Below are positions 7,176 to 21,485 of a stretch of 64,000 nt of DNA, piece after piece. The notes beneath the pieces are model-generated. The model was not told where the DNA came from and did not search any database. It saw only the letters and a list, made by a program, of their open reading frames with translations. A program made the translations under genes and the position numbers. Position 1 is the first letter of the stretch. Every line of letters begins with the position of its first letter. Origin of the DNA: Bacteroidales bacterium (GTDB taxonomy: Bacteria; Bacteroidota; Bacteroidia; Bacteroidales; Tenuifilaceae); NCBI GenBank assembly GCA_016931855.1, contig JAFGDZ010000068.1:124001-188000 (forward strand). The letters are read 5' to 3'.

Positions 7176-8855
7176 ATGAAAACAATAATTACACTAATCC
7201 TTAGCATTGCTCTTTGTGGCTCCATTGCTGCGCAAAGCGAGTTTTATCACTTTAAGTTTACCGAAAAATCGAAGGAAAAGATCAATGGAATTATTACACA
7301 AACCATATCAATAGATAATATTATTGGCGATACCATTTACGCCTACGCAAATGCCCACGAGCTTGAACAGTTCAAAACCTTTGGCTACAAGTATCGGATA
7401 ATTCCACCGCAAGCACCCACCAAGGCTCTAACCATGGCAACCACCGTTGAGCAAATGGCCAACTGGGACAGGTACCCAACCTATGAGGTTTACCGCGCCT
7501 TAATGAAACAGTTTGAAGCCGACTACCCCAACCTGTGCAAGCTCGATACCATTGGCACATCTATAAACGGACGAAAGCTGTACGTGGTAAAAATATCGGG
7601 GAACGTAACCAGTGATGAGGCCGAGCCCGAAGTGTTCTACACCAGCACCATGCATGGCGACGAAACCACTGGGTACATACTAATGCTTAGGCTTATAAAC
7701 CACCTGTTAACCGAGTATGGCTCTAACCAGCGCATTACCGACATGGTAAACAACATGGCCATTTTCATTAACCCCAACGCCAACCCCGACGGCACCTACA
7801 AAAGCGGCAACAGCACTGTTTCTGGAGCCATTAGGTACAACGCCAACTACGTGGATCTTAACCGCAACTTCCCCGACCCACGGCGCGGCGACCACCCCGA
7901 TGGGAACAGCTGGCAGCCCGAGAACGTGGCCATGATGAGCTACGCTGCAAGCCGCAGGTTTGTGCTATCGGCCAACTTCCACGGGGGCATTGAGCTGGCC
8001 AACTACCCTTGGGATACATGGACATCGGCAACAAGAAGTCATGCCGACCAGAACTGGTACATCAACACAGCAAGGCAGTACGCCACACTTGCCCAAACCA
8101 ACAGCCCAAGCGGATACTTTACTGGCGAAAACAACGGCATTACCCACGGCGGCGACTGGTACGTTGTAGCGGGCGGCCGACAGGATTACATGAACTGGTG
8201 GCACCATTGCCGCGAGGTAACCTTTGAGATTTCAGACACTAAGCTTCTGCCTACAGAGCAGCTACCGGCCCTTTGGAACTACAATCGCGATGCGCTGCTA
8301 ACCTATCTTGAGCGCGCGCTTCTTGGATTTAACGGAACCATTAAAAACAGCAACGGAGAGCCCATTAAAGCTAAGATTTTTATTGAGAATCACGATAAAG
8401 ACAGTTCCCACGTATACTCCAACGCCCAGCATGGCACATTTTACCGCCTCATTGAACCTGGCACCTGGAAAGTTACCTTTTCTGCACCAGGCTACACCCC
8501 ACAAACACACACGCTTGAGGTTGATAGCTGGACATCATTAACCCAAATTAGCCTAAGCATTGTAATGAACCCAACGGGCATTACCACCAACAGCCTGCCC
8601 AATATCAACCTTTGGCCTAATCCCTTTTCCAACAAGGTGTACATTAACATTCCCAACCAGCTCACTAGTGTTAGGGTAAGCATTTACTCGCTTAGCGGAC
8701 AACTTGTAAAAGCAATACAAGCCGATGGTTCGGGCACAATTGTTTGGGATGGCAAAACCGATAACGGGCAAACTGCCAGCCCGGGGATTTACATCGTTAA
8801 AGCCGCCACCAACGGAGGAACGGCAACCACCAAGGTTATATTTAGCCCTAAGTAA
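7176..8855 (+). CDS. Secreted zinc carboxypeptidase (M14) with T9SS sorting domain
   Basis: The 559-residue protein has a signal peptide at 1-20 (ends SIAAQ). The M14 peptidase domain at about 90-380 shows the zinc-binding HxxE in STMHGDETTGY, NPNANPDGTY, the substrate-binding Arg in DLNRNFPD, the third zinc ligand His in ANFHGGIE, and the catalytic Glu in VTFEIS. All key residues are present, so it should be active. A carboxypeptidase-regulatory beta-sandwich follows at about 390-470. The C-terminus carries a T9SS sorting domain with WPNPFSNKVYI and a FlgD-like PGIYIVKA block. It is an exported peptidase that trims C-terminal residues. A TACCTTAG near 7152 could be a degenerate -7 element. 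Confidence 0.93.
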   Translation: MKTIITLILSIALCGSIAAQSEFYHFKFTEKSKEKINGIITQTISIDNIIGDTIYAYANAHELEQFKTFGYKYRIIPPQAPTKALTMATTVEQMANWDRYPTYEVYRALMKQFEADYPNLCKLDTIGTSINGRKLYVVKISGNVTSDEAEPEVFYTSTMHGDETTGYILMLRLINHLLTEYGSNQRITDMVNNMAIFINPNANPDGTYKSGNSTVSGAIRYNANYVDLNRNFPDPRRGDHPDGNSWQPENVAMMSYAASRRFVLSANFHGGIELANYPWDTWTSATRSHADQNWYINTARQYATLAQTNSPSGYFTGENNGITHGGDWYVVAGGRQDYMNWWHHCREVTFEISDTKLLPTEQLPALWNYNRDALLTYLERALLGFNGTIKNSNGEPIKAKIFIENHDKDSSHVYSNAQHGTFYRLIEPGTWKVTFSAPGYTPQTHTLEVDSWTSLTQISLSIVMNPTGITTNSLPNINLWPNPFSNKVYINIPNQLTSVRVSIYSLSGQLVKAIQADGSGTIVWDGKTDNGQTASPGIYIVKAATNGGTATTKVIFSPK

Positions 8856-8884: not shown

Positions 8885-8923
8885 CCCATTGCCCCATTAA
8901 AACCAAACCAATGGGGCAATGGG
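8885..8923. repeat. Perfect 14-bp inverted repeat downstream of the carboxypeptidase gene
   Basis: CCCATTGCCCCATT (8885-8898) and AATGGGGCAATGGG (8910-8923) are perfect inverted repeats around an 11-nt loop. There is no T run on either strand, so it is either a weak or Rho-type terminator or a REP-like palindrome. The rest of 8856-9140 holds nothing recognisable except a promoter element near 9071. Confidence 0.6.
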
Positions 8924-9070: not shown

Positions 9071-9078
9071 TACTTTTG
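9071..9078 (+). promoter_or_regulatory. Bacteroidota -7 element before the pseudo-phosphatase gene
   Basis: TACTTTTG fits TAnnTTTG exactly and lies 63 bp before the ATG. No clear TTTG lies at -33. Confidence 0.4.
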
Positions 9079-9140: not shown

Positions 9141-10799
9141 ATGTTTCAGTCAGCATTTAAACCCTTAGCCCTTGCGCTACTATTACTACTACAAATCAGC
9201 GCTGGCAAAGCGCAGCATAGCCTATCTATCCCACCCGAAAAACCAAAGCTTATAGTGCAAATTGTGGTTTCGCAAATGCGGCTCGACTACCTACAGCGCT
9301 ACGAGAGCAAGTTTACCTACAATGGGTTTAGGATGATTGCCAGCGAGGGTGCCTTTTGCAAGAATGCAAGGTACAACTACCTGCTTACCCAAGCCTACCC
9401 CGGACTAGCAACCATATCAACAGGAGGTAACCCCTCAACGCATGGCATTGTGTCCGACAAGTGGATTTCCAAGCTCACCAACGAGGAGATTAAGGCCGTT
9501 GCCGACGATAAGGCTGAAACCGTAGGCGGCAGCTTCTTCTCTGGGAAGTACTCGCCAAAAAACCTGGTAACCAGCACCCTTGGCGACGAGATACGCATAA
9601 GCAACCCCCGATCAAAAGTTATTGGCATATCAATGGATGCAGGCTCTGCCATCCTCTCAACGGGGCATAACGCCAATGGCGTTTACTGGTTCGACACCGA
9701 ACGCGGCTTCTGGGTAAGCAGCAGCCACTTCCTAAAGGCGGCTCCCGCTTGGGTTGATACGTTTAACACCAAGGGCTTTGCCCAGCTATATACCGAGAGG
9801 GAGTGGAATGCCCTTAACCCCATATCGCAGTACGAGGAGGCCGACACTGCCACCGTTAAAAACGAGGAGAGCAAAAAGCGCATAACGCAAAAGCTGAAGC
9901 TAATGCTTGCAGGCATTATCCAAGGAAAGAAGAGCAAAACCGACTTTGCCTCGCTAAACCAAACCCCCTTTGGAAACCTGCTAACCAAGGATTTTGCCAT
10001 AGCGGCCATTGTAGGCGAAGAGCTGGGAATGGACGACCACACCGACTTGCTTACCGTTACCTTCTCCCCCACCCGCAACATAAGCCAAAAGTACGGCCCG
10101 CACTCCATTGAGATTGAGGACACCTACCTTAAACTCGACAGGGAGATAGCGCACTTCCTACAGTTTATTAACGCCACCGTTGGTAAGGAGAACGTGCTTG
10201 TGGTGCTTACCTCCGACCAGGGAGTAGCCTCAACACCCGACCACATGGAGAAGGCAAAAATACCCGGTGGATACTTCGATCCCAACAAGGCCATGATGCT
10301 ACTTAGCAGCTACCTTAACATAACCTACGGAACAGGGAAATGGGTTGTGGCATTCCACGAAAAGCAGATTTACCTAAACCACAGGCTTATTGAGGACTCC
10401 AACCTGCAGCTAGCCGAGGTGCAACAGCGCATAGCCAACTTCATGATACAGTTTACGGGCGTGGCCAACGTATCAACCGGACAGGTGCTGCAAACCTCCA
10501 ACTTTACCAGCGGAATACTACAGAAGTTCCAGAACAGCTACAACCCCCGCCGATCGGGCGATATTATAATAAACCTTGAGCCCGGCTGGGTTGAAAAAAA
10601 CGGCACGGTAACCTCGGCCAACTCGCCCTACAGCTACGATGCCCACGTACCGCTTATTTGGTACGGCTGGAAAATTAAGCGCAAAGCGATACTAAACCCA
10701 GTATCCATGACCGACATTGCCCCAACCATATCCACACTAATAGGCATAACCTGGCCCAACGGCGCAACGGGAACCCCCATTAGGGAGATTATTGAGTAA
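9141..10799 (+). CDS. Alkaline-phosphatase-superfamily (PafA-like) protein, predicted inactive
   Basis: The 552-residue protein has a signal peptide at about 1-25 (ends AGKAQ). Its overall pattern is that of PafA/type I phosphodiesterase proteins of Bacteroidota: QMRLDYLQRY, PGLATISTG.NPSTHGI, YGPHSIEIEDTYLKLDREI and YDAHVPLIWYG. Family knowledge gives the metal ligands and nucleophile, and almost all are changed here. The Asp of VVDQMR is S44, the Thr nucleophile before PGH is A85, the GH His is L89, and the DxxxH pair is R312/Q316. The DH pair is D359/Q360, and the phosphate-contacting Lys and Arg of the KDR motif are D166/G168. Only D359 and H502 remain. It is probably a periplasmic pseudo-enzyme. 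A small gene follows after 17 bp. Confidence 0.85.
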   Translation: MFQSAFKPLALALLLLLQISAGKAQHSLSIPPEKPKLIVQIVVSQMRLDYLQRYESKFTYNGFRMIASEGAFCKNARYNYLLTQAYPGLATISTGGNPSTHGIVSDKWISKLTNEEIKAVADDKAETVGGSFFSGKYSPKNLVTSTLGDEIRISNPRSKVIGISMDAGSAILSTGHNANGVYWFDTERGFWVSSSHFLKAAPAWVDTFNTKGFAQLYTEREWNALNPISQYEEADTATVKNEESKKRITQKLKLMLAGIIQGKKSKTDFASLNQTPFGNLLTKDFAIAAIVGEELGMDDHTDLLTVTFSPTRNISQKYGPHSIEIEDTYLKLDREIAHFLQFINATVGKENVLVVLTSDQGVASTPDHMEKAKIPGGYFDPNKAMMLLSSYLNITYGTGKWVVAFHEKQIYLNHRLIEDSNLQLAEVQQRIANFMIQFTGVANVSTGQVLQTSNFTSGILQKFQNSYNPRRSGDIIINLEPGWVEKNGTVTSANSPYSYDAHVPLIWYGWKIKRKAILNPVSMTDIAPTISTLIGITWPNGATGTPIREIIE

Positions 10800-11108: not shown

Positions 11109-11117
11109 ATTAAGGAA

Positions 11118-11540
11118 AGTCTAATTCCAGTGTGGTGCGATTGGAAGGATCCGCAAAAACAAGCGGCCCTGTTGGTTGCCAGTTTCAATTCCAGTGTGGT
11201 GCGATTGGAAGACTCCCCAATAGCGCCGATAGCAAAGGCGTTAAGGGTTTCAATTCCAGTATGGTGCGATTGGAAGTTCCTTATCGGCTTTTACGATTCG
11301 CAGGATCCAGAGAATTTCAATTCCAGTATGGTGCGATTGGAAGAGGGAAGGTCAACAGGCTATTCACCTCGCTTGTAAAATTTCAATTCCAGTATGGTGC
11401 GATTGGAAGAAGGTTAGCAACAACCTTAGCGATGTGGCAAATGCATTTCAATTCCAGTATGGTGCGATTGGAAGAGGAGCTACTCAATCAACCGTAACGG
11501 ACTTGCGCCGATTTCAATTCCAGTATGGTGCGATTGGAAG
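11118..11540 (-). CRISPR. Type I-B CRISPR array, 7 repeats of 30 bp and 6 spacers
   Basis: Repeats start at 11118, 11182, 11247, 11314, 11380, 11445 and 11511, each 30 bp. The spacers are 34, 35, 37, 36, 35 and 36 bp. On the minus strand the repeat starts CTTCCAATCG and ends GGAATTGAAA plus T or C, the ATTGAAA(N) 3' end typical of type I-B crRNA handles. TTCCA/TGGAA can form the short hairpin that Cas6 cuts. The repeat at 11118 is degenerate in its ATTGAAA end, marking it as the trailer end. The leader is therefore on the right, beside cas2, and the array is read leftwards. The two leftmost repeats carry GTG where the others have ATG. Spacer origins cannot be determined here. Confidence 0.97.
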
Positions 11541-11543
11541 CCG

Positions 11544-11551
11544 CAAAGATA
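11544..11551 (-). promoter_or_regulatory. Putative -7 promoter element at the array boundary
   Basis: The minus-strand sequence TATCTTTG fits the Bacteroidota TAnnTTTG consensus. Transcription would start in the first bases of the leader-proximal repeat. No TTTG is found at the expected -33 position. Confidence 0.4.
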
Positions 11552-11591
11552 GTTAAAAAAATATCCCGTTTTACGGGGGTTATATGATGAT

Positions 11592-11673
11592 TGGAATCGC
11601 AATTTTGGACGGCTGATGTTGTCGATCGCCAATAACGCATTTTTCCCTGCGGTTCGACAACATCAGCATTCCA
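11592..11673. repeat. Long inverted repeat in the CRISPR leader
   Basis: GCTGATGTTGTCGA (11612-11625) and TCGACAACATCAGC (11654-11667) are perfect 14-bp inverted repeats with a 28-nt centre. An outer TGGAAT (11592-11597)/ATTCCA (11668-11673) pairing adds six more pairs. There is no T run on either side. Confidence 0.7.
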
Positions 11674-11770
11674 TTCATTTTCAGTATGTCAAAGAACCTT
11701 TTACCTTTATACAACAAAAAATCCAGTGAAACGCTCTAGATGGGCGCCAACATCGACAACCCAAATGCAT

Positions 11771-12037
11771 CTACAGCATTGTATCTATGGAGCTGCGCTC
11801 CTTGCCTACAATCTCCTTTTCGAGCCACTTGCTGTCGCGACTTTTAAACACAATAAGGCTATCCTCCTCTTCGTCCATAATCTCCGATGCCCTATGATAA
11901 AGTTCCTTTAGCTTTACCTCAGTTATCTCGCCCTCAAAAACGGAGTTCTGTATCCAGTTTAGGTATTTCCGGCAAAGCTTTAGCATTTTGCCTGTGCGTT
12001 TCTGCCCAACATCGTAAACTAGTATTATGTACATCAA
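11771..12037 (-). CDS. cas2: CRISPR-associated endoribonuclease/adaptation protein Cas2
   Basis: The 88-residue protein has the usual Cas2 ferredoxin-like pattern. It starts MMYIILVYDV with the conserved Asp after beta-1, followed by GKMLKLCRKYLNWIQNSVFEG (a typical RRY..W.Q.SVFEG-like block) and a C-terminal VFKSRDSKWLEKEIVG strand region. Either of the first two Met codons could be the start; the second (12034) matches the family better. Cas2 dimers bridge two Cas1 dimers in the spacer-integration complex. It is the last cas gene before the leader, 70 bp downstream of cas1. Confidence 0.96.
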   Translation of the reverse strand: MMYIILVYDVGQKRTGKMLKLCRKYLNWIQNSVFEGEITEVKLKELYHRASEIMDEEEDSLIVFKSRDSKWLEKEIVGKERSSIDTML

Positions 12038-12107
12038 GCAATAGTTTTAGTAGTTCGCAATACACCAATTACTTGCCTATGGCAATGTGCAATTGGCAAT
12101 ATATTAG

Positions 12108-13112
12108 CTACCACCACATTTTAAATGGGCGGTACTCCTCTATCCCCAAAAGATGCTTGCTTAGCTTATAGCACTCCAGCTTCACTAGGTGCTTGTAGCT
12201 AACGCTGCGCTTGAGGGTTCGGTGCTGAATGGTTTCGCCAAGCCGCTCCTCAAAGGCCTTTACAAATATCTTTTTCCCCGATTCGTTTAATAGGCATCGG
12301 TTCAACGATTCGGCAAAATGCTTATCCTGAAGCTCTCGCTTATTAAGCACCTTGAAAATAACTCTATCAACAAGCAGGGGCTTAAATATTTCGGCAACAT
12401 CTAGCGCCAAGGAGTAGCGCCGCTCCCCAGGGGTATGCAAATACGATATGGTAGGATTTAGCTGCGTTTGATGTATTGCTCTTAGGCATTGGCTGTAGCA
12501 CATCATGTTACCAAATGATATTAGGGCATTAACGGGGTTCTGTGGAGGTTGCTTGGTTCTACCGCCCATTTCAAAATCGTTTATTATAAGATTAAACGCA
12601 TCGTAGTACGCCTGCCTTATATTCCCCTCAACTCCCATAAGCTCATCTATCTGCGTGGTTTGCGGCACCGATTGCTGAAGCTGCTCAATCCTTTCTATTG
12701 GGGCAGACAGGTCTTTTCCACGGCTATCGTAGTACCTCAAATTTTTAAGCATGTTGTGCGATGCCCCCTCTATAAACCGCTGCGCAATTACCATGCGCCG
12801 CTGCTTATTGGAGTAAAAGTTGGCCTGAGCCATAAGCATACGACCCGATAGCAGGCCATCCCTAGCCATAAACGAGCCTGTATAGTTCTCGTAGTAATCG
12901 AAAAAATGAACGCATATACCATTCTGCCCTAAGAAACTGTAAAGAGCGCTATTGGCATCAAGTGAACCAAAAACGTACATATCGTCAACGCTCTCCACGG
13001 GGATGTATCGTGGCTGTCCCTCTGTGCCGTTCTCATCAACAGGAACAAATTTCAGGGTATTGTCCTTTCGGCTCAACCGGCCGGGATTAAACAGATAGTA
13101 GGATTTTTTCAT
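12108..13112 (-). CDS. cas1: CRISPR integrase Cas1 (type I-B)
   Basis: The 334-residue protein has an N-terminal beta domain (MKKSYYLFNPGRLSRKDNTL) and a C-terminal helical catalytic domain. The metal-binding triad is visible: E162 in GVEGNIRQAYYD, H226 in YLHTPGERRYSLALDVAE, and D238. It integrates new spacers together with Cas2 and probably Cas4. Normally cas4 is immediately upstream in I-B loci. Here a RAYT transposase gene and two palindromes are wedged between them, so cas1 begins 12 bp from a strong 15-bp hairpin. Expression of cas1-cas2 may therefore depend on read-through. Confidence 0.97.
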   Translation of the reverse strand: MKKSYYLFNPGRLSRKDNTLKFVPVDENGTEGQPRYIPVESVDDMYVFGSLDANSALYSFLGQNGICVHFFDYYENYTGSFMARDGLLSGRMLMAQANFYSNKQRRMVIAQRFIEGASHNMLKNLRYYDSRGKDLSAPIERIEQLQQSVPQTTQIDELMGVEGNIRQAYYDAFNLIINDFEMGGRTKQPPQNPVNALISFGNMMCYSQCLRAIHQTQLNPTISYLHTPGERRYSLALDVAEIFKPLLVDRVIFKVLNKRELQDKHFAESLNRCLLNESGKKIFVKAFEERLGETIQHRTLKRSVSYKHLVKLECYKLSKHLLGIEEYRPFKMWW

Positions 13113-13124
13113 GTTTACTTATAT

Positions 13125-13157
13125 AAACCAGTCAGGTTTTTGAAACCTGACTGGTTT
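13125..13157. repeat. REP-like palindrome between RAYT and cas1
   Basis: AAACCAGTCAGGTTT (13125-13139) and AAACCTGACTGGTTT (13143-13157) form a 15-bp perfect stem with a 3-nt loop. It lies just past the RAYT stop and just before the cas1 start. The core CCTGAC/GTCAGG is shared with the palindromes at 13544 and 13837. Confidence 0.85.
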
Positions 13158-13165
13158 TATGACTA

Positions 13166-13819
13166 TTACTCTATTACCAAATGATCAATAAAATCAAAAT
13201 CAATTATTTGCCTATGCGTATCCACAAAATTGCCCTTTCCATCGAACCAGTCTAACACCTGATTGCGGTTAAGTTTTGTTGACTTAGCCGATACAATTGA
13301 ACCGTACGACGACCAAGGGTAGTCCTTGTAATTATCGGTAAATCCATGGTGCACAGGGTTTGAGTGGATATAAACAACCAGTTGGCGAAAGTACCGCTCA
13401 CTATCGACCAGCTTACGGCGGAATGGGCGTTCGAAAAGCGTTCCTTGGCGACCTCGCTGTTTGTTAAGGGCCTGAGCATATGCGTTGAATAAATTAGAAA
13501 AACTTTTCGATGCGAATTGGGAAAGTTTTTCGTCCTTCTCCACCCCTGACAGGGTTTGAAACCCTGTCAGGGCTTTTCTTCCTCGATTCGAAATTTCTTC
13601 AATTACTACCTCCTCCACCTCCTTAATGCGTACCAACAAATGAAAATGGTTGCCCAGCAAGCACCAAGCAAAGGTATCGGCAATGGGGTCGATATGCTCA
13701 TCGTACTTCCGCAAGAAATACTGGTAATTATCGGGACTATAAAACAAGTTTACCCCATTCACACCCTTGTTGTAAATGTGGTAGTAGTTGCCAGCAATTA
13801 GGGGTTGGATTGTGAACAT
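13166..13819 (-). CDS. REP-associated tyrosine transposase (IS200/Y1-like, RAYT)
   Basis: The protein is 217 residues from the ATG at 13819. A GTG codon at 13840 would add seven residues but lies inside a palindrome. The HUH motif is NHFHLLVRI (H58, H60), and the catalytic Tyr is probably Y113 in NAYAQALNKQ. The GTLFERPFRRKLV, YIHSNPVHHGF and YPWSSYG blocks are classic for the RAYT branch of Y1 transposases. RAYTs are single-copy, non-IS relatives that process REP palindromes. Three such palindromes are here: at each end of the gene and inside it. Residues 83-92 (ALTGFQTLSG) are encoded by the internal one. The gene splits cas4 from cas1 in the same transcription direction. Confidence 0.92.
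   Translation of the reverse strand: MFTIQPLIAGNYYHIYNKGVNGVNLFYSPDNYQYFLRKYDEHIDPIADTFAWCLLGNHFHLLVRIKEVEEVVIEEISNRGRKALTGFQTLSGVEKDEKLSQFASKSFSNLFNAYAQALNKQRGRQGTLFERPFRRKLVDSERYFRQLVVYIHSNPVHHGFTDNYKDYPWSSYGSIVSAKSTKLNRNQVLDWFDGKGNFVDTHRQIIDFDFIDHLVIE
13544..13572. repeat. REP-like palindrome inside the RAYT coding sequence
   Basis: CCCTGACAGGGTTT (13544-13557) and AAACCCTGTCAGGG (13559-13572) make a 14-bp perfect palindrome with a single central base. It is read through in frame by the transposase gene. Confidence 0.85.
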
Positions 13820-13836
13820 CTTCTTATTCTTTTTAA

Positions 13837-13873
13837 ACACACCTGACAGGTTTTAGAAACCTGTCAGGTGTGT
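13837..13873. repeat. REP-like palindrome between cas4 and RAYT
   Basis: ACACACCTGACAGGTTT (13837-13853) and AAACCTGTCAGGTGTGT (13857-13873) form a 17-bp perfect stem with a 3-nt loop, 7 bp past the cas4 stop. Its core is the same as in the other two palindromes. Confidence 0.85.
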
Positions 13874-13880
13874 ATTACTA

Positions 13881-14387
13881 TTACTCCTCCCCGCTCCAGC
13901 AGAAGTCGTTGTAGGAGCAGTTTCTGCATTTCGGGCTTTTTATTCTTGGAGGACAAGTATCTAATGATAATAGTTTGTTTACAGAATCAATAATTTCTCT
14001 TAATCGCTCTCTATCATCCTCGTTAAGTTCAACTTCTTCTGTTTTTCTTTCCTGCGGATACTCAAGAATACCGCTAACATTTTCCACTCCATTTCTTTCA
14101 AGTATTAATATGTAATACTTTAGTTGCCAAACATGTGTTTCATGGAACTTACTCGATTTTTTAATTTCATGAATTACTCTATTTTTAGCATCATAGAAAT
14201 CGATCTTTATGGGACCAAATGAAATCTGCTCATATTTACTTGAACGATGATTATAACTTGTTTCTTCAACAAATACACCCATTTCAACATCCTCGGATGT
14301 GTCCTCAAATCGAATACAGTTAGCATGCAGCCACATTCTTCTATGACAGTAAAGATAATAGGCTATTAATGTACCTGTAACATCCAT
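13881..14387 (-). CDS. cas4: CRISPR-associated exonuclease Cas4
   Basis: The 168-residue protein is a compact Cas4 of the RecB/PD-(D/E)XK type. It has an N-terminal Cys C14 (YYLYCHRRMWLH), a nuclease core with D63, E74-x-K76 (HEIKKS) and Q88..Y91 (QLKYY), and a C-terminal cluster C154/C157/C163, with C145 nearby. One N-terminal plus three C-terminal Cys is the arrangement for a 4Fe-4S cluster. Cas4 trims prespacers and selects PAM-proximal ends for Cas1-Cas2. Its start codon overlaps the cas3 stop by one base (both at 14387). The next gene downstream is the RAYT insertion rather than cas1. Confidence 0.95.
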   Translation of the reverse strand: MDVTGTLIAYYLYCHRRMWLHANCIRFEDTSEDVEMGVFVEETSYNHRSSKYEQISFGPIKIDFYDAKNRVIHEIKKSSKFHETHVWQLKYYILILERNGVENVSGILEYPQERKTEEVELNEDDRERLREIIDSVNKLLSLDTCPPRIKSPKCRNCSYNDFCWSGEE

Positions 14388-16813
14388 TATAGAAAGCAGT
14401 TTTCAACATTATTAACTATAAGGCCAGTTTTGGAAGAATAATTAGTATGGCTAATAAACTTAATTCCCATGATTTCGTAAACGAAGTTATCTATAGGATA
14501 CTGCGATTTATTGTATTTATTCAGCCTTACATTAAGAATCCTGCCATTAAGTTTTTTTTGAAAAGAACTTAACTTAATTCTAAGTTCTTGCCTTTCAGTA
14601 AACGTCTTCGATGCAGAAAGTTTTGCTAAAAGCAATTCTAAATCTTCGTAAACAAAGTCGTTTTCATCCTTTAAAATGTAAAATTGTATTTGCTCACCAA
14701 CATTCTGGTTAATAAGTTTAAAACGCCCCAATGTTTCAAACCTTGCCCTTTTTACACATTCAACCATATTAACTCGGCTTTCATGACCCGAAATAAAGTC
14801 GCCAATACTAAGATTGTCTTTTATATACTCAAAGAATTTCGATTGCACGCCGAACAGTTCCTTCTCATGTATTCCGCTCTTTAGTTCTTTAATACAAAAA
14901 TCGAGAAAAACTTTTGCTTCATCACGATAAATAAGTGATGCCCTAGACCTTCCTTTATCATTTATAAGTTGAAGAAAGAATACTTGACCAAGTTCTATTT
15001 TTTTATTACGGTTGCACCTACCTGCACTCTGGATTAAACTTGGCAAAGGACATAAGTCTCTGTAAACAATGGGAAAATCAATATCAACACCCGCCTCAAT
15101 AAGTTGAGTAGATATTAATACAACCCTAATGTTGGCCGCCAATTTTGCTTTAATCTCATCAATTATCCTACTCCTGTCATCGGGTATGAAATGTGTATTT
15201 AGAAGGAACAAATTCTCACACCGATATTCGAGTTTATCATATAGCGCCTTAGTGTCTGCGATTGTATTCAGAATTACTAGGCTGGAATTTTCTTGTTTAA
15301 GGATATGCTCCGCCAATTCATCAACATTACACTTATCAGTCAGTATATCTATTCTATATCTATTAAAAGTATCCTCACTGAAATATTTTGCTGCATCAAT
15401 CAACTCCTTAGGCGGAGAGTAATCTACAAAAAGTAAATCAGCTCGCAATTCCTCATTAGCGCTAGTCTTTATAGGAATTTCCATTTTGGGCATAGTTGCA
15501 GTGGAAAGAACTGCGAAAGAATTATTCCTTCTACAAAACTCTTGGAGCCAAGCTGTAAAGAATATGTATAAACGAGGGGGCAACGCTTGCACTTCGTCGA
15601 TAAGAATAATACGATTAGCAAAATTTGGCAGTTTTAGAAGAGTAGAGTTTCTGTTGCTAACAAGAGTTTCAAATAGTTGAACAAACGTTGTGATTATAAA
15701 GGGATGATCAAAAGTGTTCTGAACAAAATCCTCTTTTAAAATCTTATTCAAATTCTCAGGAGTTTGCTCATTTTCGTATAGTTGTTGAGCTCTTTCTATC
15801 CTATCATTTTCTGCCTTTGAGTTAATTGCAAGCACATCTTCAAGTAAAGTTTTTGCAATATCTTCAACCTGCTCTGTAATTGAAAGAAAAGGCAAGGCGT
15901 AAATAATACCTAATTCCCCCTTTACCCTCCTAATCTCATTGGCTATAGCTAGTAATGAGAATGTTTTCCCCGCTCCAGTAGGCGCTGTAAGCGTAAAAAT
16001 GCGCTCCTCCCTTTGCATAGCTTTTCTTACACCCTGTACAGCTTCGACTCTAATAGCTGTTCTCAGTCTGTTTAGGCTAGAAATACTTGAGGAATCATCG
16101 AATAATTCAAATTTTGAAGTCAACGAACTACGTAAACTATCAACGTTTTGGGTTACTGATGTTTTAAAGTAAAAGTCAACATTACTGCCTGCATCCCTTT
16201 TATCTGCTTCTATTAAAGCAGAAAATGCAGACTGAGTATCCATAAAATATCTAAGTGGATTTTTCTTCCAAGCACTCTTGTGAATTCTATCCGTGAATGT
16301 TAGGATTATGTCAGTTTTTTTGTTTAGCGCAAGAGAGAAATCTTCAGATGGTAGATTAAGCCTTTTCTCAATGAATTCTTGAATAGGTAAAACATCCGCA
16401 TTTTCTTGAAAAAACGCATAGGCTGTTATGAGTTCTTCTGAACTTGGGGAGAAATTCTCAAGATCAGGAAGGTTTCCGTGGTGTTTGCCAATTATAACAG
16501 ATACCAACAAGACAAATAAAGCAAACTCCTCATTGCTTTCAACATTGCACTTTTCTTTTAGCAAATCAATATTTGCTAATGCAAAATTCGTAAAGGCAAG
16601 CAATGATAGGTAAGAGTGATTACTATATCCTCCAGTGGCTTCCCCCTTCAACTTTGCTTGGAAATTAGGGTTCATCTTCCCAATATCGTGAAAAAGTGCA
16701 GCCCAATACACAAATGGGCTAGAGGAGCGGTGTAGGGTTAACTCCACCACTCCTTTAATATGCTCCTCCAACTTTTTATTTGGATGAGATTCAAACTCTA
16801 AATCAAGCACCAT
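14387..16813 (-). CDS. cas3: CRISPR-associated helicase-nuclease Cas3 (HD-fused)
   Basis: The 808-residue protein has an N-terminal HD nuclease domain (H42-D43 in ALFHDIGKM; H111/H112 in IGKHHGN). An SF2 helicase follows, with Walker A TAPTGAGKT (276-284), Walker B DEVQ (406-409), motif III STATMP and motif VI QSAGRCNRN (about 595-603). It unwinds and degrades the DNA strand displaced by Cascade. The start overlaps the end of cas5 by 16 bp and the stop overlaps the cas4 start, so translational coupling is likely. The catalytic residues look intact. Confidence 0.97.
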   Translation of the reverse strand: MVLDLEFESHPNKKLEEHIKGVVELTLHRSSSPFVYWAALFHDIGKMNPNFQAKLKGEATGGYSNHSYLSLLAFTNFALANIDLLKEKCNVESNEEFALFVLLVSVIIGKHHGNLPDLENFSPSSEELITAYAFFQENADVLPIQEFIEKRLNLPSEDFSLALNKKTDIILTFTDRIHKSAWKKNPLRYFMDTQSAFSALIEADKRDAGSNVDFYFKTSVTQNVDSLRSSLTSKFELFDDSSSISSLNRLRTAIRVEAVQGVRKAMQREERIFTLTAPTGAGKTFSLLAIANEIRRVKGELGIIYALPFLSITEQVEDIAKTLLEDVLAINSKAENDRIERAQQLYENEQTPENLNKILKEDFVQNTFDHPFIITTFVQLFETLVSNRNSTLLKLPNFANRIILIDEVQALPPRLYIFFTAWLQEFCRRNNSFAVLSTATMPKMEIPIKTSANEELRADLLFVDYSPPKELIDAAKYFSEDTFNRYRIDILTDKCNVDELAEHILKQENSSLVILNTIADTKALYDKLEYRCENLFLLNTHFIPDDRSRIIDEIKAKLAANIRVVLISTQLIEAGVDIDFPIVYRDLCPLPSLIQSAGRCNRNKKIELGQVFFLQLINDKGRSRASLIYRDEAKVFLDFCIKELKSGIHEKELFGVQSKFFEYIKDNLSIGDFISGHESRVNMVECVKRARFETLGRFKLINQNVGEQIQFYILKDENDFVYEDLELLLAKLSASKTFTERQELRIKLSSFQKKLNGRILNVRLNKYNKSQYPIDNFVYEIMGIKFISHTNYSSKTGLIVNNVENCFL

Positions 16814-17493
16814 CTTGTTTGGTCGTTAAACTCATAGTATGCCCCTTGCACTTTAATCCTAGACTGATTAGACGGATAAACAACAGATACGTATCGCTCA
16901 GGAATATTCCAAAAGTCGTTATTTTGATACGTTGGAATCTTATCAAATCCTATTCTAAAAGTTGTGAGTTCATCCATCATCGGCTTATAATTATCAGTAA
17001 CAAAACCAAGTGTTTCAAAAACACCCTCCTTTTCAGCTAGGCTTCCTGTTTCTATAAAAGAAATATCCGCAGGACAATTATGCAAACCAAGTACTGGAGA
17101 ATAGCAGGCTTTACCTTGCTGACAATGCGATTTGAATTTTTCAAAGAGTTCAGCACAGGCGTTGTCTTTCAAACCACAAATAATTGTGTAGTCTGGATTT
17201 TTAATAAACTCCATCTGTTTAGGCGACTTATCCCAACTGTTTGAAACGCTCCGTAAAGTGAAACCCCAAGATTGTTTTACTACTGCGTTATTAACCTGTA
17301 GCCCAAAAAGCAAACCATCGCAAAGCAAGGGGAATTGGTCTCTCATATCTTCACGATTAATTCCTATAACTGCACCTATTAGTCCTACAAATGCCGTTTT
17401 GGTCATAAAGTCGTGCGACAAGGGGTTATTATTGGTTTCAGCCTTTCGGAACTGCGCCCAATTGCCATTTACCCTAATTTTTACTGCATCCAT
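16798..17493 (-). CDS. cas5: Cascade subunit Cas5 (type I-B)
   Basis: The 231-residue RAMP protein starts MDAVKIRVNGNWAQFRKAETN, the usual N-terminal beta strand plus W.(H/Q)FR pattern of Cas5. KTAFVGLIGAVIGI, the glycine-containing helix typical of the family, follows. Cas5 caps the 5' handle of the crRNA in Cascade and contacts Cas8. It sits between cas7 (1 bp gap) and cas3 (16 bp overlap). Identification rests on motif pattern plus position; the I-B subtype follows from the neighbours. Confidence 0.92.
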   Translation of the reverse strand: MDAVKIRVNGNWAQFRKAETNNNPLSHDFMTKTAFVGLIGAVIGINREDMRDQFPLLCDGLLFGLQVNNAVVKQSWGFTLRSVSNSWDKSPKQMEFIKNPDYTIICGLKDNACAELFEKFKSHCQQGKACYSPVLGLHNCPADISFIETGSLAEKEGVFETLGFVTDNYKPMMDELTTFRIGFDKIPTYQNNDFWNIPERYVSVVYPSNQSRIKVQGAYYEFNDQTRWCLI

Positions 17494-17494
17494 A

Positions 17495-18505
17495 TTAAAA
17501 GCTCATTTCTGTGAACTTTGAACCAAGTTTTGAAATAGTTTCTTTTACCTCAGGAATTTCAGTGTAATATCTAATTGCCTTTATTTTAGTTGACTCCGCA
17601 ATTTCTTTTAACCTCGAAAAGTTGAACGTGTAGTCGTCCATCGAACGAATTTGCTCGTCTTCTTTGCTCGATTCAATCGTTATTAACTTATCTGTTCCGT
17701 AAAGTTTATCGTTTGGCTCATTGTAAACTATTTGGATTAGCAATACAGAACTTTGGTTTGACTTGCTTCTAGTATTAATATTATTAATGCTTTTCCACAT
17801 AGCACTAAAAAGTTCCTTTATATCATCATTGCTAAGGTCTGTTTGAATTGCCGAGTAGGGATTAATCCAACCGTGTATTTGGTTTATTGCGTATGGCACC
17901 ACTGTGGTTGTTCCAATTGCTCCTCTGGATTTCTCTGCACTAGATGAGAAAACCGAAGTGTTCTGATGTATTCTAAGGTCGCTTTTATTAAGGGAAGGAT
18001 TTAGCAGAGCAAATTGAACAGGACCTGTAAGGTTTACTGCGGCTTCAGCTTCTGTTGAAATACCTCCAAATAATCTAACATCTATACAATTCTTTAAAAG
18101 GCTGAGAGCAGTTTCGAAGATTCTCTTTTCCTTTTTGAGTTTATCAAAGAAATCTTTTTTCCCTTTTTTTAAATCAGCCTCACTTAATTGTTTGTCCTTA
18201 AGTTGATCGTTCAGATACTTTTCCCAAAGTGATTTCATCCTTGCAGAAGAGCCAGACTCTGTACTTCCTTCAGCAACCTGCGATTTATCATTAAAAACAT
18301 AAACCTCGTAATTTGTATTACCATTTAAAAGATTCTGTTCAATAAAAAAATCTCTCACGTAGCGTTTTATTCTTACATCAGAAACCAGCACGCGCTTAGT
18401 TTCCTCATCGTATCTTTGCTCACCTGTAAAGGGGTCGCCATTAGGAATAGTGTATTTGCTCTCAAATAGGAACAAAATTTCTGATTTGTCAACAGTATTA
18501 ACCAT
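17495..18505 (-). CDS. cas7: Cascade backbone subunit Cas7 (Csh2 type, I-B)
   Basis: The 336-residue protein shows the Csh2/DevR features. Its N-terminus, SEILFLFESKYTIPNGDPFTGEQRYDEETKRVLVSDVRIKRYVRD split into strands, has the conserved NGDP and SDVRIKRYVRDF blocks. A central RLFGG and TGPVQFALLNPSLNKS segment follows. Six or so Cas7 copies coat the crRNA spacer. The gene lies 19 bp downstream of cas8b and 1 bp upstream of cas5. Confidence 0.94.
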   Translation of the reverse strand: MVNTVDKSEILFLFESKYTIPNGDPFTGEQRYDEETKRVLVSDVRIKRYVRDFFIEQNLLNGNTNYEVYVFNDKSQVAEGSTESGSSARMKSLWEKYLNDQLKDKQLSEADLKKGKKDFFDKLKKEKRIFETALSLLKNCIDVRLFGGISTEAEAAVNLTGPVQFALLNPSLNKSDLRIHQNTSVFSSSAEKSRGAIGTTTVVPYAINQIHGWINPYSAIQTDLSNDDIKELFSAMWKSINNINTRSKSNQSSVLLIQIVYNEPNDKLYGTDKLITIESSKEDEQIRSMDDYTFNFSRLKEIAESTKIKAIRYYTEIPEVKETISKLGSKFTEMSF

Positions 18506-18524
18506 AATAGTATTTTTTAAGGGT

Positions 18525-20288
18525 TTAATTATCTAAACTACTTTCAACTTGATTCTCATTTTTCTTGCCACTGGCATAGTAGGTTTCAAAGAATCCAAGG
18601 GCGCAATTATGCTTGCTGTATTTTTCTCCTTTAAACTCTTTAACTAGTCCCACTAATTCTAGGTAAGCATTTTTCACATCTGGGTATAGCCTCTCGTGAA
18701 TGACTAATTTCTCATTAATAAATCCTGAAAACTTTACCAGTTCATCAATTGAACTTATGCGGCGTGATAGATTTCCTACATAAGATTTTTCGAACGATTT
18801 TATTGGACAATCGTTTCGCCAAGCAGCGAATTGCCTTGCCATTATGCCTAGGTTACGCCCTAGCTCATAACTCTTTGTTTGGGTTATTTCCATAAGATTG
18901 TTTTTTTTCTGAATGCTCATTAAAAAGTAAAAGTCGTATTTAAGGGTTGTAAAAGAAGGATTCCCCTCTCGTATATTATATTCAACCTTATCGATAAAGG
19001 TAGGTAAGAGTAGGGGGTCGTTGTAATAGGTGTCAGTATAAATTTGAGGTATCACTTTAAGTAGATGAAACTGAAACTTCTTTTTATCCTTAGTAACATC
19101 ACCAAGAATATTCAAAAAGCTTTTCCTGATAGAAAAGGTTGGATTATTTAGGGTTGATAATTCCGTTTTTAACTGTGCAATGATTTTTCTTTTCACAGCA
19201 TCAATCTGGTTGTGAATATAAACTAATAGGCTTTTTTCTACGTTTGAAACTTCTATTAAATCGCAATAGACACCCGCAGGCGATTTTGGGATACTTGAGA
19301 AGATAATGTCAAACTTAACCCTTTCGTTAAACGGATTATTAATAGCCTCACCAAAGAGGTCATCTATATTTATTCCAACTTCTGTAACAAGGCTTTCCTC
19401 ACCATGTCTAGCTTCGTCAACTGATACCGTCTTCTTTTCAAAAAAAGTTACAATATCCTGCGAAGTCAACTGGTCAGAATGAGGGAGAAGTATTATACCA
19501 ATATCATTAATTCTTACTTTAGGCTGCTGGTATGCTTCAGTTGCATACATAATACTTATAATATCATCGCTCGTGAAAACCTTATTTTTGTATTTGTATT
19601 TTTCATCAAATCCAGGTGTAATTCCTCCTAGTGTTTTATACAAGTACTTATCTAGAACCAAATGACCTGTTTCGGGATCTTTTACAACAAGGTTTTGAGT
19701 AATAATTTCATCAATAGCAATTAGCAATCCATCAACCTCAAACCAACTGAGACCGATAAAACTAAAATGAAGTACAACAGATAGCTTTGATTTAATAAGT
19801 TCTTCAAGTTCTAACTTCTTCTTTCTGTATTCATCCCTAAACTTATGAATAAACAGATTTTCCATTGTTTTCGCTATCTCTTCGGCTCCGTCAAATGAAG
19901 AACGTTTTTCCCATTTCCCAAACAAGCGGTAGTTTCCAAACTCTTGCAAATCACCTTTCTTATCAAAAAAGTGGCTATAACAAATATCGCCAAGCAGATA
20001 ACGCTTTTCTGCATCCTTTTTAGAGGTTTTAAAATTTAAGTAGTAAAGGCTTTTCTTTTTATCTTCATCCTCAATAGTTCTTAAATTATCAAGGTCAAAC
20101 AAAAAAGAATCACCCTTGTCTATAACAGGAACTTCATAAAATGTAGTTTCTATAGGATTCCCATCTTTATCCTTATTTTTTCTAAGAGCCTCCACATCTT
20201 TTACAACCGAATTAACCTGCTCGTGATATATGTGTGCATTGGGCGCTTGGCGGTATAGTTTACCAATTTTTATTACGGTGTCAAGCAT
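18525..20288 (-). CDS. cas8b: Cascade large subunit Cas8b (Csh1 type)
   Basis: The 587-residue protein is in the position and size class of I-B large subunits. It lacks any enzyme motif and is rich in Lys/Glu and aromatic residues. The C-terminal 130 residues are mostly helical (YELGRNLGIMARQFAAW, then long amphipathic helices), like a small subunit Cas11 fused to the end. An ATG at 18920, which encodes Met457 at the start of MSIQKKNN, could serve as an internal start. Cas8b recognises the PAM. Some Csh1 proteins have Cys-rich zinc motifs; none is obvious here. The assignment depends on both locus position and general pattern. Confidence 0.88.
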   Translation of the reverse strand: MLDTVIKIGKLYRQAPNAHIYHEQVNSVVKDVEALRKNKDKDGNPIETTFYEVPVIDKGDSFLFDLDNLRTIEDEDKKKSLYYLNFKTSKKDAEKRYLLGDICYSHFFDKKGDLQEFGNYRLFGKWEKRSSFDGAEEIAKTMENLFIHKFRDEYRKKKLELEELIKSKLSVVLHFSFIGLSWFEVDGLLIAIDEIITQNLVVKDPETGHLVLDKYLYKTLGGITPGFDEKYKYKNKVFTSDDIISIMYATEAYQQPKVRINDIGIILLPHSDQLTSQDIVTFFEKKTVSVDEARHGEESLVTEVGINIDDLFGEAINNPFNERVKFDIIFSSIPKSPAGVYCDLIEVSNVEKSLLVYIHNQIDAVKRKIIAQLKTELSTLNNPTFSIRKSFLNILGDVTKDKKKFQFHLLKVIPQIYTDTYYNDPLLLPTFIDKVEYNIREGNPSFTTLKYDFYFLMSIQKKNNLMEITQTKSYELGRNLGIMARQFAAWRNDCPIKSFEKSYVGNLSRRISSIDELVKFSGFINEKLVIHERLYPDVKNAYLELVGLVKEFKGEKYSKHNCALGFFETYYASGKKNENQVESSLDN

Positions 20289-20325
20289 AATATTTATTTT
20301 TAGTTTTTATCTTTTACTAAACCTA

Positions 20326-21096
20326 TCAGGTTCTCCCCCCAACACATCCAAACCCCATACTATTCTCCTCGCCAAATCCACCTACGTAGCCTAAGCGCAT
20401 AATCTCGGGCGAAGCCGTAATTCGGAAACGGAAACGATAGCCAATAACCTTAACAGGGCGTACCAAATCCTTTTTCTGCATCAGAACGCCCTTTAGCTTA
20501 GGCTCATCAATTAGCTCAAACTGCTCATTGGGTAATCGGGCGGGATCGTTGCCATAGTAAACTTGGTGCTTCCGCACCAAATTATCTATAATGGCCTTTG
20601 CGTAGCGCGCATCGGTAGGCGAAAGGTACTCCTTGGTACCATCGGGACGCTTAGCCGAAACCACTACGGGCGAAAGGCTTTCAAACTCCATTGTTTCGGG
20701 GTAAGCGGGTTCTGGAACCATCTCAATAGAGGCCACATTAAATGAAGCCCTACTAATGCTATCACCTATTGTTGCACGCTGCTGTGCAAATACACCTTTC
20801 ACAAACTCCTCGGTAGAGCGTTCGGGTAAAAACGACAAAAGAAAAGTAACTGGCTCAGCAGATAGAATAAGCCTGTCGCCATTCACCCTTGCACGGGGAG
20901 TTGTAAGGTTCGAAAAGCAGAAAAACTTAAACCTTTTACTCCCATCGGCAAATCCATTGGCATGTAGCCACTCGGCATAACTCCTATCGCCATTTGCTAT
21001 GGTTTTGTAAACCCACGATGCCAATGGGTACTGATAATTAATGGGTAAAAGGTTCTCTTTTGTACTATCAGGAATAAGGGTAATCTTAAATCTCAT
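20326..21096 (-). CDS. cas6: crRNA-processing endoribonuclease Cas6
   Basis: The protein is 256 residues from the ATG at 21096. An in-frame upstream codon at 21135 would add MRLVPCSTIILLV, which does not fit the family, whereas MRFKITLIPD is a typical Cas6 first strand. The glycine-rich loop close to the C-terminus (GGFGEENSMGFGCVGG) is the Cas6 signature for binding the repeat hairpin. Cas6 cuts the repeat to leave the 8-nt ATTGAAA(N)-type handle. It is the first gene of the cas operon; a candidate promoter lies about 130 bp upstream. Confidence 0.93.
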   Translation of the reverse strand: MRFKITLIPDSTKENLLPINYQYPLASWVYKTIANGDRSYAEWLHANGFADGSKRFKFFCFSNLTTPRARVNGDRLILSAEPVTFLLSFLPERSTEEFVKGVFAQQRATIGDSISRASFNVASIEMVPEPAYPETMEFESLSPVVVSAKRPDGTKEYLSPTDARYAKAIIDNLVRKHQVYYGNDPARLPNEQFELIDEPKLKGVLMQKKDLVRPVKVIGYRFRFRITASPEIMRLGYVGGFGEENSMGFGCVGGRT

Positions 21097-21485
21097 GACC
21101 AATAATATTATAGTAGAGCACGGCACTAACCGCACCAGTTATTTAAAAAGACATTGGAGCTAATAATGAGAAGTAAACCACTAGGAGTAGTAACCATATA
21201 CTGCTCTTTTATATTTTTTTTTGCAAAGTACATTGCCGTTGTGTCAACCTATGACAATGCACTAACTTTTTTTCTTTTTTATCCTATCCTTTTTGCAGCA
21301 GATGCCGAATAATTGCTATTAAATCCTTTTTATCCCTTTCTTCTATCCTTTTCAACCATAAACCATAGCAGTAGCGGCTCTATAAAAGTAGAAACACTTT
21401 TTATAGATTACAAGTAAAGTTCTCCTAAAAAATGAGAAACCCAACAGGCGGCCGAGACCTGTCAGGCGTTTATTGATTTACACCC
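21097..21485. promoter_or_regulatory. Non-coding region upstream of the cas operon
   Basis: No gene is seen in this 389-bp AT-rich stretch. On the minus strand, TTGTC (21253-21257) and TACTTTG (21230-21224) form a weak Bacteroidota-type promoter pair facing cas6. An imperfect REP-like hairpin lies at 21436-21470, and a CTATAAAA/TTTTATAG pairing lies at 21381-21407. Confidence 0.35.
21436..21470. repeat. Imperfect REP-like hairpin remnant
   Basis: ACAGG (21444-21448) and CCTGT (21458-21462) pair, with partly matching AAACCC/GGCGTT arms. It contains CCTGTCAGG, the same core as the palindromes around the RAYT gene about 8 kb away. Confidence 0.5.

Follow-up and report, generated by a model that had tools for sequence, protein, structure and literature searches.

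The stretch of DNA analysed here (the window) comprises 64,000 nucleotides from a Bacteroidales bacterium of the Tenuifilaceae (GenBank assembly GCA_016931855.1, contig JAFGDZ010000068.1, positions 124,001 to 188,000 of the forward strand), and carries an intact open reading frame (ORF) of 552 amino acids, starting with ATG, that encodes a homologue of the alkaline phosphatase PafA in which nearly all catalytic and metal-binding residues are replaced. A first-pass annotation of the window had seen a single such protein; our finding is a family that spans the order Bacteroidales (hereafter the order, with the Tenuifilaceae as the host family). The gene and its features are:

9141..10799, plus strand: PafA-like pseudo-phosphatase gene with a degenerate active site (ORF, NF042991 and PF01663 matches, homology and fold shared with 5tj3, active-site columns)
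9141..9214, plus strand: putative Sec signal peptide, approximately residues 1-24, a hydrophobic helix followed by GKAQ/HS (sequence reading; helix 6-24 in the model)
9270..9272, plus strand: S44 where PafA has metal ligand D38 (alignment)
9393..9395, plus strand: A85 in place of the nucleophile T79 (alignment)
9636..9644, plus strand: D166 and G168 in place of the phosphate-binding K162 and R164 (alignment)
10074..10088, plus strand: R312 and Q316 where PafA has metal ligands D305 and H309 (alignment)
10215..10220, plus strand: D359, the single ligand that remains, and Q360 where PafA has H353 (alignment)
10266..10565, plus strand: subdomain of residues 376-475 with conservation raised in the order, a proposed interaction surface (column conservation comparisons)
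10617..10619, plus strand: A493 where PafA has metal ligand H486 (alignments)

Assignment of the protein to the PafA lineage rests on several matches. The NCBIfam PafA model NF042991 covers residues 15-552 (549.9 bits, E 5e-165), a score that falls below the curated equivalog cut-off of 650 bits, and the alkaline phosphatase superfamily model PF01663 is matched well above its Pfam cut-off (114 versus 23 bits). The closest solved structure is that of PafA itself (5tj3, E 5e-100), and an AlphaFold2 model built with 60 homologues (predicted local distance difference test score, pLDDT, 91.2; predicted template modelling score 0.89) returned 5tj3 as its top Foldseek match, with template modelling (TM) scores of 0.86/0.91 and 34% identity, so that the predicted protein retains the PafA fold over its whole length. 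Among the Pfam and NCBIfam matches of the window protein there was no C-terminal sorting domain (Por_Secre_tail), the mark by which it could have been counted as cargo of the type IX secretion system (T9SS).

In PafA we take zinc 1 to be held by D305, H309 and H486 and zinc 2 by D38, T79, D352 and H353, with T79 as the nucleophile and N100, K162 and R164 the phosphate contacts. Alignment of PafA with the window protein pairs D38 with S44, T79 with A85, N100 with D106, K162 with D166, R164 with G168, D305 with R312, H309 with Q316, D352 with D359, H353 with Q360 and H486 with A493 (the HMMER alignment places N494 opposite H486 instead). Nine of these ten positions are thus replaced and D359 is the sole survivor; it is also the only one kept of the six protein metal ligands, and the features by which a PafA is recognised (the T79 nucleophile, the six zinc ligands and the N100/K162/R164 contacts) are lacking but for this one residue. 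Every substitution listed in the first-pass annotation is borne out by the alignment, to which N100 to D106 can be added. Its two surviving ligands fared differently: D359 stands, but H502 aligns with PafA H495, which belongs to a YDSH motif that is near-invariant in the family and is not a metal ligand. Among the 57 columns that are invariant in canonical sequences, most non-catalytic ones are kept by the host family at 90-100%, and of the ten catalytic columns only D352 is retained, which indicates that the loss was targeted at the catalytic centre. A structure with metal ligands supplied by shifted residues would have spoken against a dead site; sequence comparison of the host family revealed no candidate replacement, in the sense of a His, Cys or Asp newly invariant there.

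The degenerate gene is well kept in the host family. Out of 26 other genomes, 22 hold a single open-frame orthologue with 63-68% identity that shares the altered site, two hold a diverged copy at 46%, and the two without a copy are both incomplete assemblies; every copy found is degenerate. Over the nine closest pairs, in which dS reaches at most 1.5, the ratio of nonsynonymous to synonymous substitution rates (dN/dS) is 0.043-0.065, and by its sequence the protein has the marks of a pseudoenzyme, having lost its catalytic residues in a gene under purifying selection. That the gene is a pseudogene, or a relaxed gene on its way out, is extremely improbable: two distant loci do have an internal stop in the matched stretch, but in the host family full-length frames and a dN/dS of about 0.05 already contradict decay, and across the order the gene is found in most genomes with its fold residues mostly 80-100% kept. 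The earlier proposal of a conserved pseudo-enzyme is therefore strongly supported by orthologues, dN/dS, synteny and an intact fold, and the PafA-like gene is not decaying. No second, canonical PafA was found in the window's own genome, which makes a role as pseudo-subunit or helper of an active PafA unlikely here.

If the protein is dead as an enzyme its old pocket might still bind a small ligand, as in a sensor or binding protein, a role close to the one first proposed. The pocket is partly constrained, with S44, D359 and Q360 invariant in 23 close members of the host family and R or K kept at position 312. On the other hand, the entropy of positions 85, 168, 316 and 493 in the host family falls in the 70th-97th percentile of the protein, mean conservation of the ten sites across the order is 0.19-0.22, and the loss of two zincs, the Lys and the Arg together with the gain of D166 removes the anion site. 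Ligand binding in so variable a pocket is unlikely.

To place the window protein in a broader context we collected homologues, almost all of them from Bacteroidales, and found 161 of 184 distinct sequences to be degenerate and 23 canonical. Most degenerate homologues retain at most two of the six metal ligands, in many different combinations of residues. Ten of the canonical sequences come from or group with other lineages (PafA, L064, L065, L072-L075, L077, L078 and L083), five are in genomes of the order and group with outside PafAs (L190, L194, L200, L201 and L202), and eight lie inside the order's own clade (L043, L086, L091, L092, L097, L101, L113 and L148). Outside the order all ten residues were kept in 49 of 49 homologues, for which the other orders and classes of the phylum had been sampled evenly. 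In a sample of the order itself, much of which consists of metagenome-assembled genomes, roughly 180 of 295 genomes had a convincing PafA-like match (E below 1e-50). In some genomes a degenerate orthologue coexists with a canonical PafA that clusters with sequences from outside the order (L235 with L194 in G149, and L098 with L200 in G086), which looks like a second acquisition of the phosphatase.

The pattern of erosion differs between lineages. A Salinivirgaceae-type set (L030, L038, L042, L045-L049, L051-L053, L055 and L076) keeps E38, T79, D352 and H353 and has lost all zinc-1 ligands, possibly making it a natural one-metal form, while four others (L034, L112, L173 and L176) keep D305, H309 and H486 and have lost T79 and D352. 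Since one nested series of losses cannot yield both patterns, much of the erosion was independent. Canonical sequences also fall inside the degenerate set, which forms three all-degenerate clades in an 87-row tree and several in a 31-row tree; degenerate L094 groups with canonical L086 and L043. The internal stops mentioned above, one in-frame codon each within the homologous stretch, belong to L088 and L094. The plausible single-metal site of the Salinivirgaceae-type relatives, along with the invariance of D359 in the host family, could be taken to mean that the window protein is still an enzyme, an altered one-metal or metal-free hydrolase that uses other residues. We consider this very unlikely, given that the host family has Ala, Ser or Pro where the nucleophile should be, that only one of the four zinc-2-site residues survives, and that no His, Cys or Asp ligand has newly become invariant there.

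To ask where constraint now resides, 75 degenerate sequences were compared column by column with 39 outside canonical ones, both sets thinned to similar mean pairwise identity (0.363 and 0.376). At this matched divergence conservation at the ten sites is 0.99 in the outside canonical set and only 0.19 in the degenerate set, and at their sequence neighbours it drops from 0.56 to 0.36. Conversely, the 25-residue windows of residues 376-475, the contiguous alpha/beta subdomain corresponding to PafA 369-467, rise about twofold, from 0.19-0.25 to 0.35-0.42, compared with a rise of at most 0.06 in every other 25-residue window. Separate realignment of the two sets gave ratios of conservation in 376-475 to that in the rest of the protein of 0.53 (outside) and 1.00 (degenerate), so the shift is robust. 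Among degenerate sequences this ratio is 1.10 in the host family, 1.05 in the Salinivirgaceae-type and 1.23 in a diverged branch whose gene lies between lnb and secA; among canonical sequences it is 0.52 outside the order and 1.00 in the eight inside it. The markers F379, L387, Y396, W401, L416, I417 and F434 are moreover present in all eight in-order canonical sequences. Because these already show the second constraint, it appears older than the loss of the site, and the comparison suggests that a second, non-catalytic role outlived the phosphatase. The "new binding role" of the first-pass annotation is borne out only in part: a small ligand in the variable pocket is not favoured, and raised constraint is found elsewhere, at 376-475.

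The neighbourhood of the gene bears on its history and on its possible partners. Two features lie upstream in the window:

7176..8855, plus strand: M14 zinc carboxypeptidase with a T9SS sorting tail, the immediate upstream neighbour (family matches, locus comparison)
8885..8923, no strand assigned: perfect 14-bp inverted repeat CCCATTGCCCCATT / AATGGGGCAATGGG, loop of 11 nt, in the gap that separates the M14 gene from the PafA-like gene (sequence reading)

With neighbouring genes taken from naive gene calling, the M14 gene stands directly upstream on the same strand in 20 of the 20 host-family relatives read, at gaps of -13 to 77 bp (289 bp in the window). In many families the genes run YchF, T9SS-tailed M14 and PafA-like gene, convergent with PcrB, phosphopantetheinyl transferase, GldD, GldE and SSB. 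Canonical loci share parts of this arrangement (YchF and M14 at L043 and L237; an S8 peptidase, PcrB, phosphopantetheinyl transferase, GldD, GldE and SSB at L239), and because it is partly common the degenerate and canonical forms look orthologous at one ancestral locus. In many Bacteroides-type genomes (about 10 loci, L224-L235) the gene of the diverged branch instead lies between lnb (lipoprotein N-acyltransferase) and secA; the model of one member (pLDDT 89.1; TM scores to 5tj3 of 0.81/0.86) keeps the PafA fold.

Operon-like spacing with a T9SS-tailed carboxypeptidase in the host family, convergent gldD and gldE nearby in many genomes, and the presence of SprA in the window's own genome might suggest that the protein is part of, or a dedicated helper for, the T9SS. 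This is quite unlikely: gldD and gldE are encoded on the other strand, the PafA-like gene is absent from several SprA-positive genomes (e.g. G027, G029, G090, G101 and G107), and a degenerate orthologue is found in genomes without an SprA match (G082, G109, G132, G173 and G215), whose retention of the gene argues against a role confined to this system. Partnership with Lnb was also considered as a general rule and rejected, as no Lnb match turned up in the window genome or in most of the close relatives that were tested; for the window genome, this makes an Lnb-only role unlikely.

The explanation we favour, with a probability of about 0.6, is that the window protein is a vertically inherited Bacteroidales pafA orthologue, now a non-catalytic exported protein that would act as a scaffold or chaperone-like binder through residues 376-475. 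The ancestral PafA of the order was probably bifunctional, hydrolysing phosphomonoesters at the zinc site and performing a non-catalytic task at 376-475. Over most of the order the phosphatase function would then have been dropped, the ligands that eroded varying from lineage to lineage, and purifying selection would have continued to act on the fold and the second task. The present protein, presumably devoid of phosphatase activity, would be exported by Sec to the periplasm and there use its 376-475 surface to bind another protein that is itself secreted or part of the envelope; the first candidate in the host family is the co-directional M14 carboxypeptidase, and elsewhere the neighbours Lnb and SecA. 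More tentatively, and at somewhat less than even odds, we suggest the wider account of a two-function ancestral PafA in which an envelope function in 376-475 keeps the gene order-wide as the site erodes piecemeal, leaving a large unnamed pseudoenzyme family that includes the lnb-secA gene of Bacteroides-type genomes.

Several points weigh against this explanation. The order of events depends on only eight in-order canonical sequences, which share ancestry. Approximately unbiased tests leave a single degenerate clade unrejected (p 0.22 and 0.14), and the trees thus do not settle the number of losses. Stability or oligomerisation, not a partner, could be the reason why 376-475 is relatively more conserved, and since the neighbour varies across the order any choice of partner is guesswork.

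PafA serves as a marker gene in work on phosphorus cycling and as a model for the study of enzyme mechanism. Counts of pafA from gut or anaerobic Bacteroidales accordingly need an active-site check. The family also offers a natural experiment, in which an enzyme scaffold remains under strong selection after the loss of catalysis with an identifiable region gaining constraint, and in-order relatives with a full active site are available for comparison. Should the second function prove to be an envelope one, the protein would be a conserved component in common gut bacteria.

The nearest characterized relative, PafA of Elizabethkingia meningoseptica (5tj3, NF042991), is homologous over the full length (36% identity), of similar length and of the same fold; what sets the window protein apart, besides its replaced site and sub-threshold NF042991 score, is the conserved 376-475 signature, which PafAs outside the order lack. 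PhoK/SPAP of Sphingomonas (3q3q, 5xwk) and the NPP/ENPP enzymes (PF01663) share the superfamily core fold, but are far more distant (23% and about 12% identity, respectively) and are active zinc enzymes. The degenerate lnb-X-secA orthologues (L226, L228) resemble the window protein in predicted fold, site loss and a conserved 379-434 signature, and differ in having about 30% identity, other residues in the old site and Lnb and SecA as neighbours. A 2022 survey of PafA kept only sequences with all key residues, removing point mutants there (PMC8812569); the filter implies that such sequences exist, and the degenerate branch therefore went unstudied. Our literature search, to which most subscription papers were out of reach, found no paper describing a pseudo-PafA branch.

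Some further features flank the gene. On its 5' side a Bacteroidota-type -7-like box, TACTTTTG, is found at 9071, which is weak evidence. Directly downstream lies a type I-B CRISPR-Cas locus (window 11117-21135) that begins with 7 repeats, followed on the minus strand by cas2, cas1, cas4, cas3, cas5, cas7, an unrecognised large gene and cas6. The large gene (18525-20288) occupies the place of cas8 in a type I-B locus, and a gene resembling REP-associated tyrosine transposases (13166-13840) is located between cas1 and cas4.
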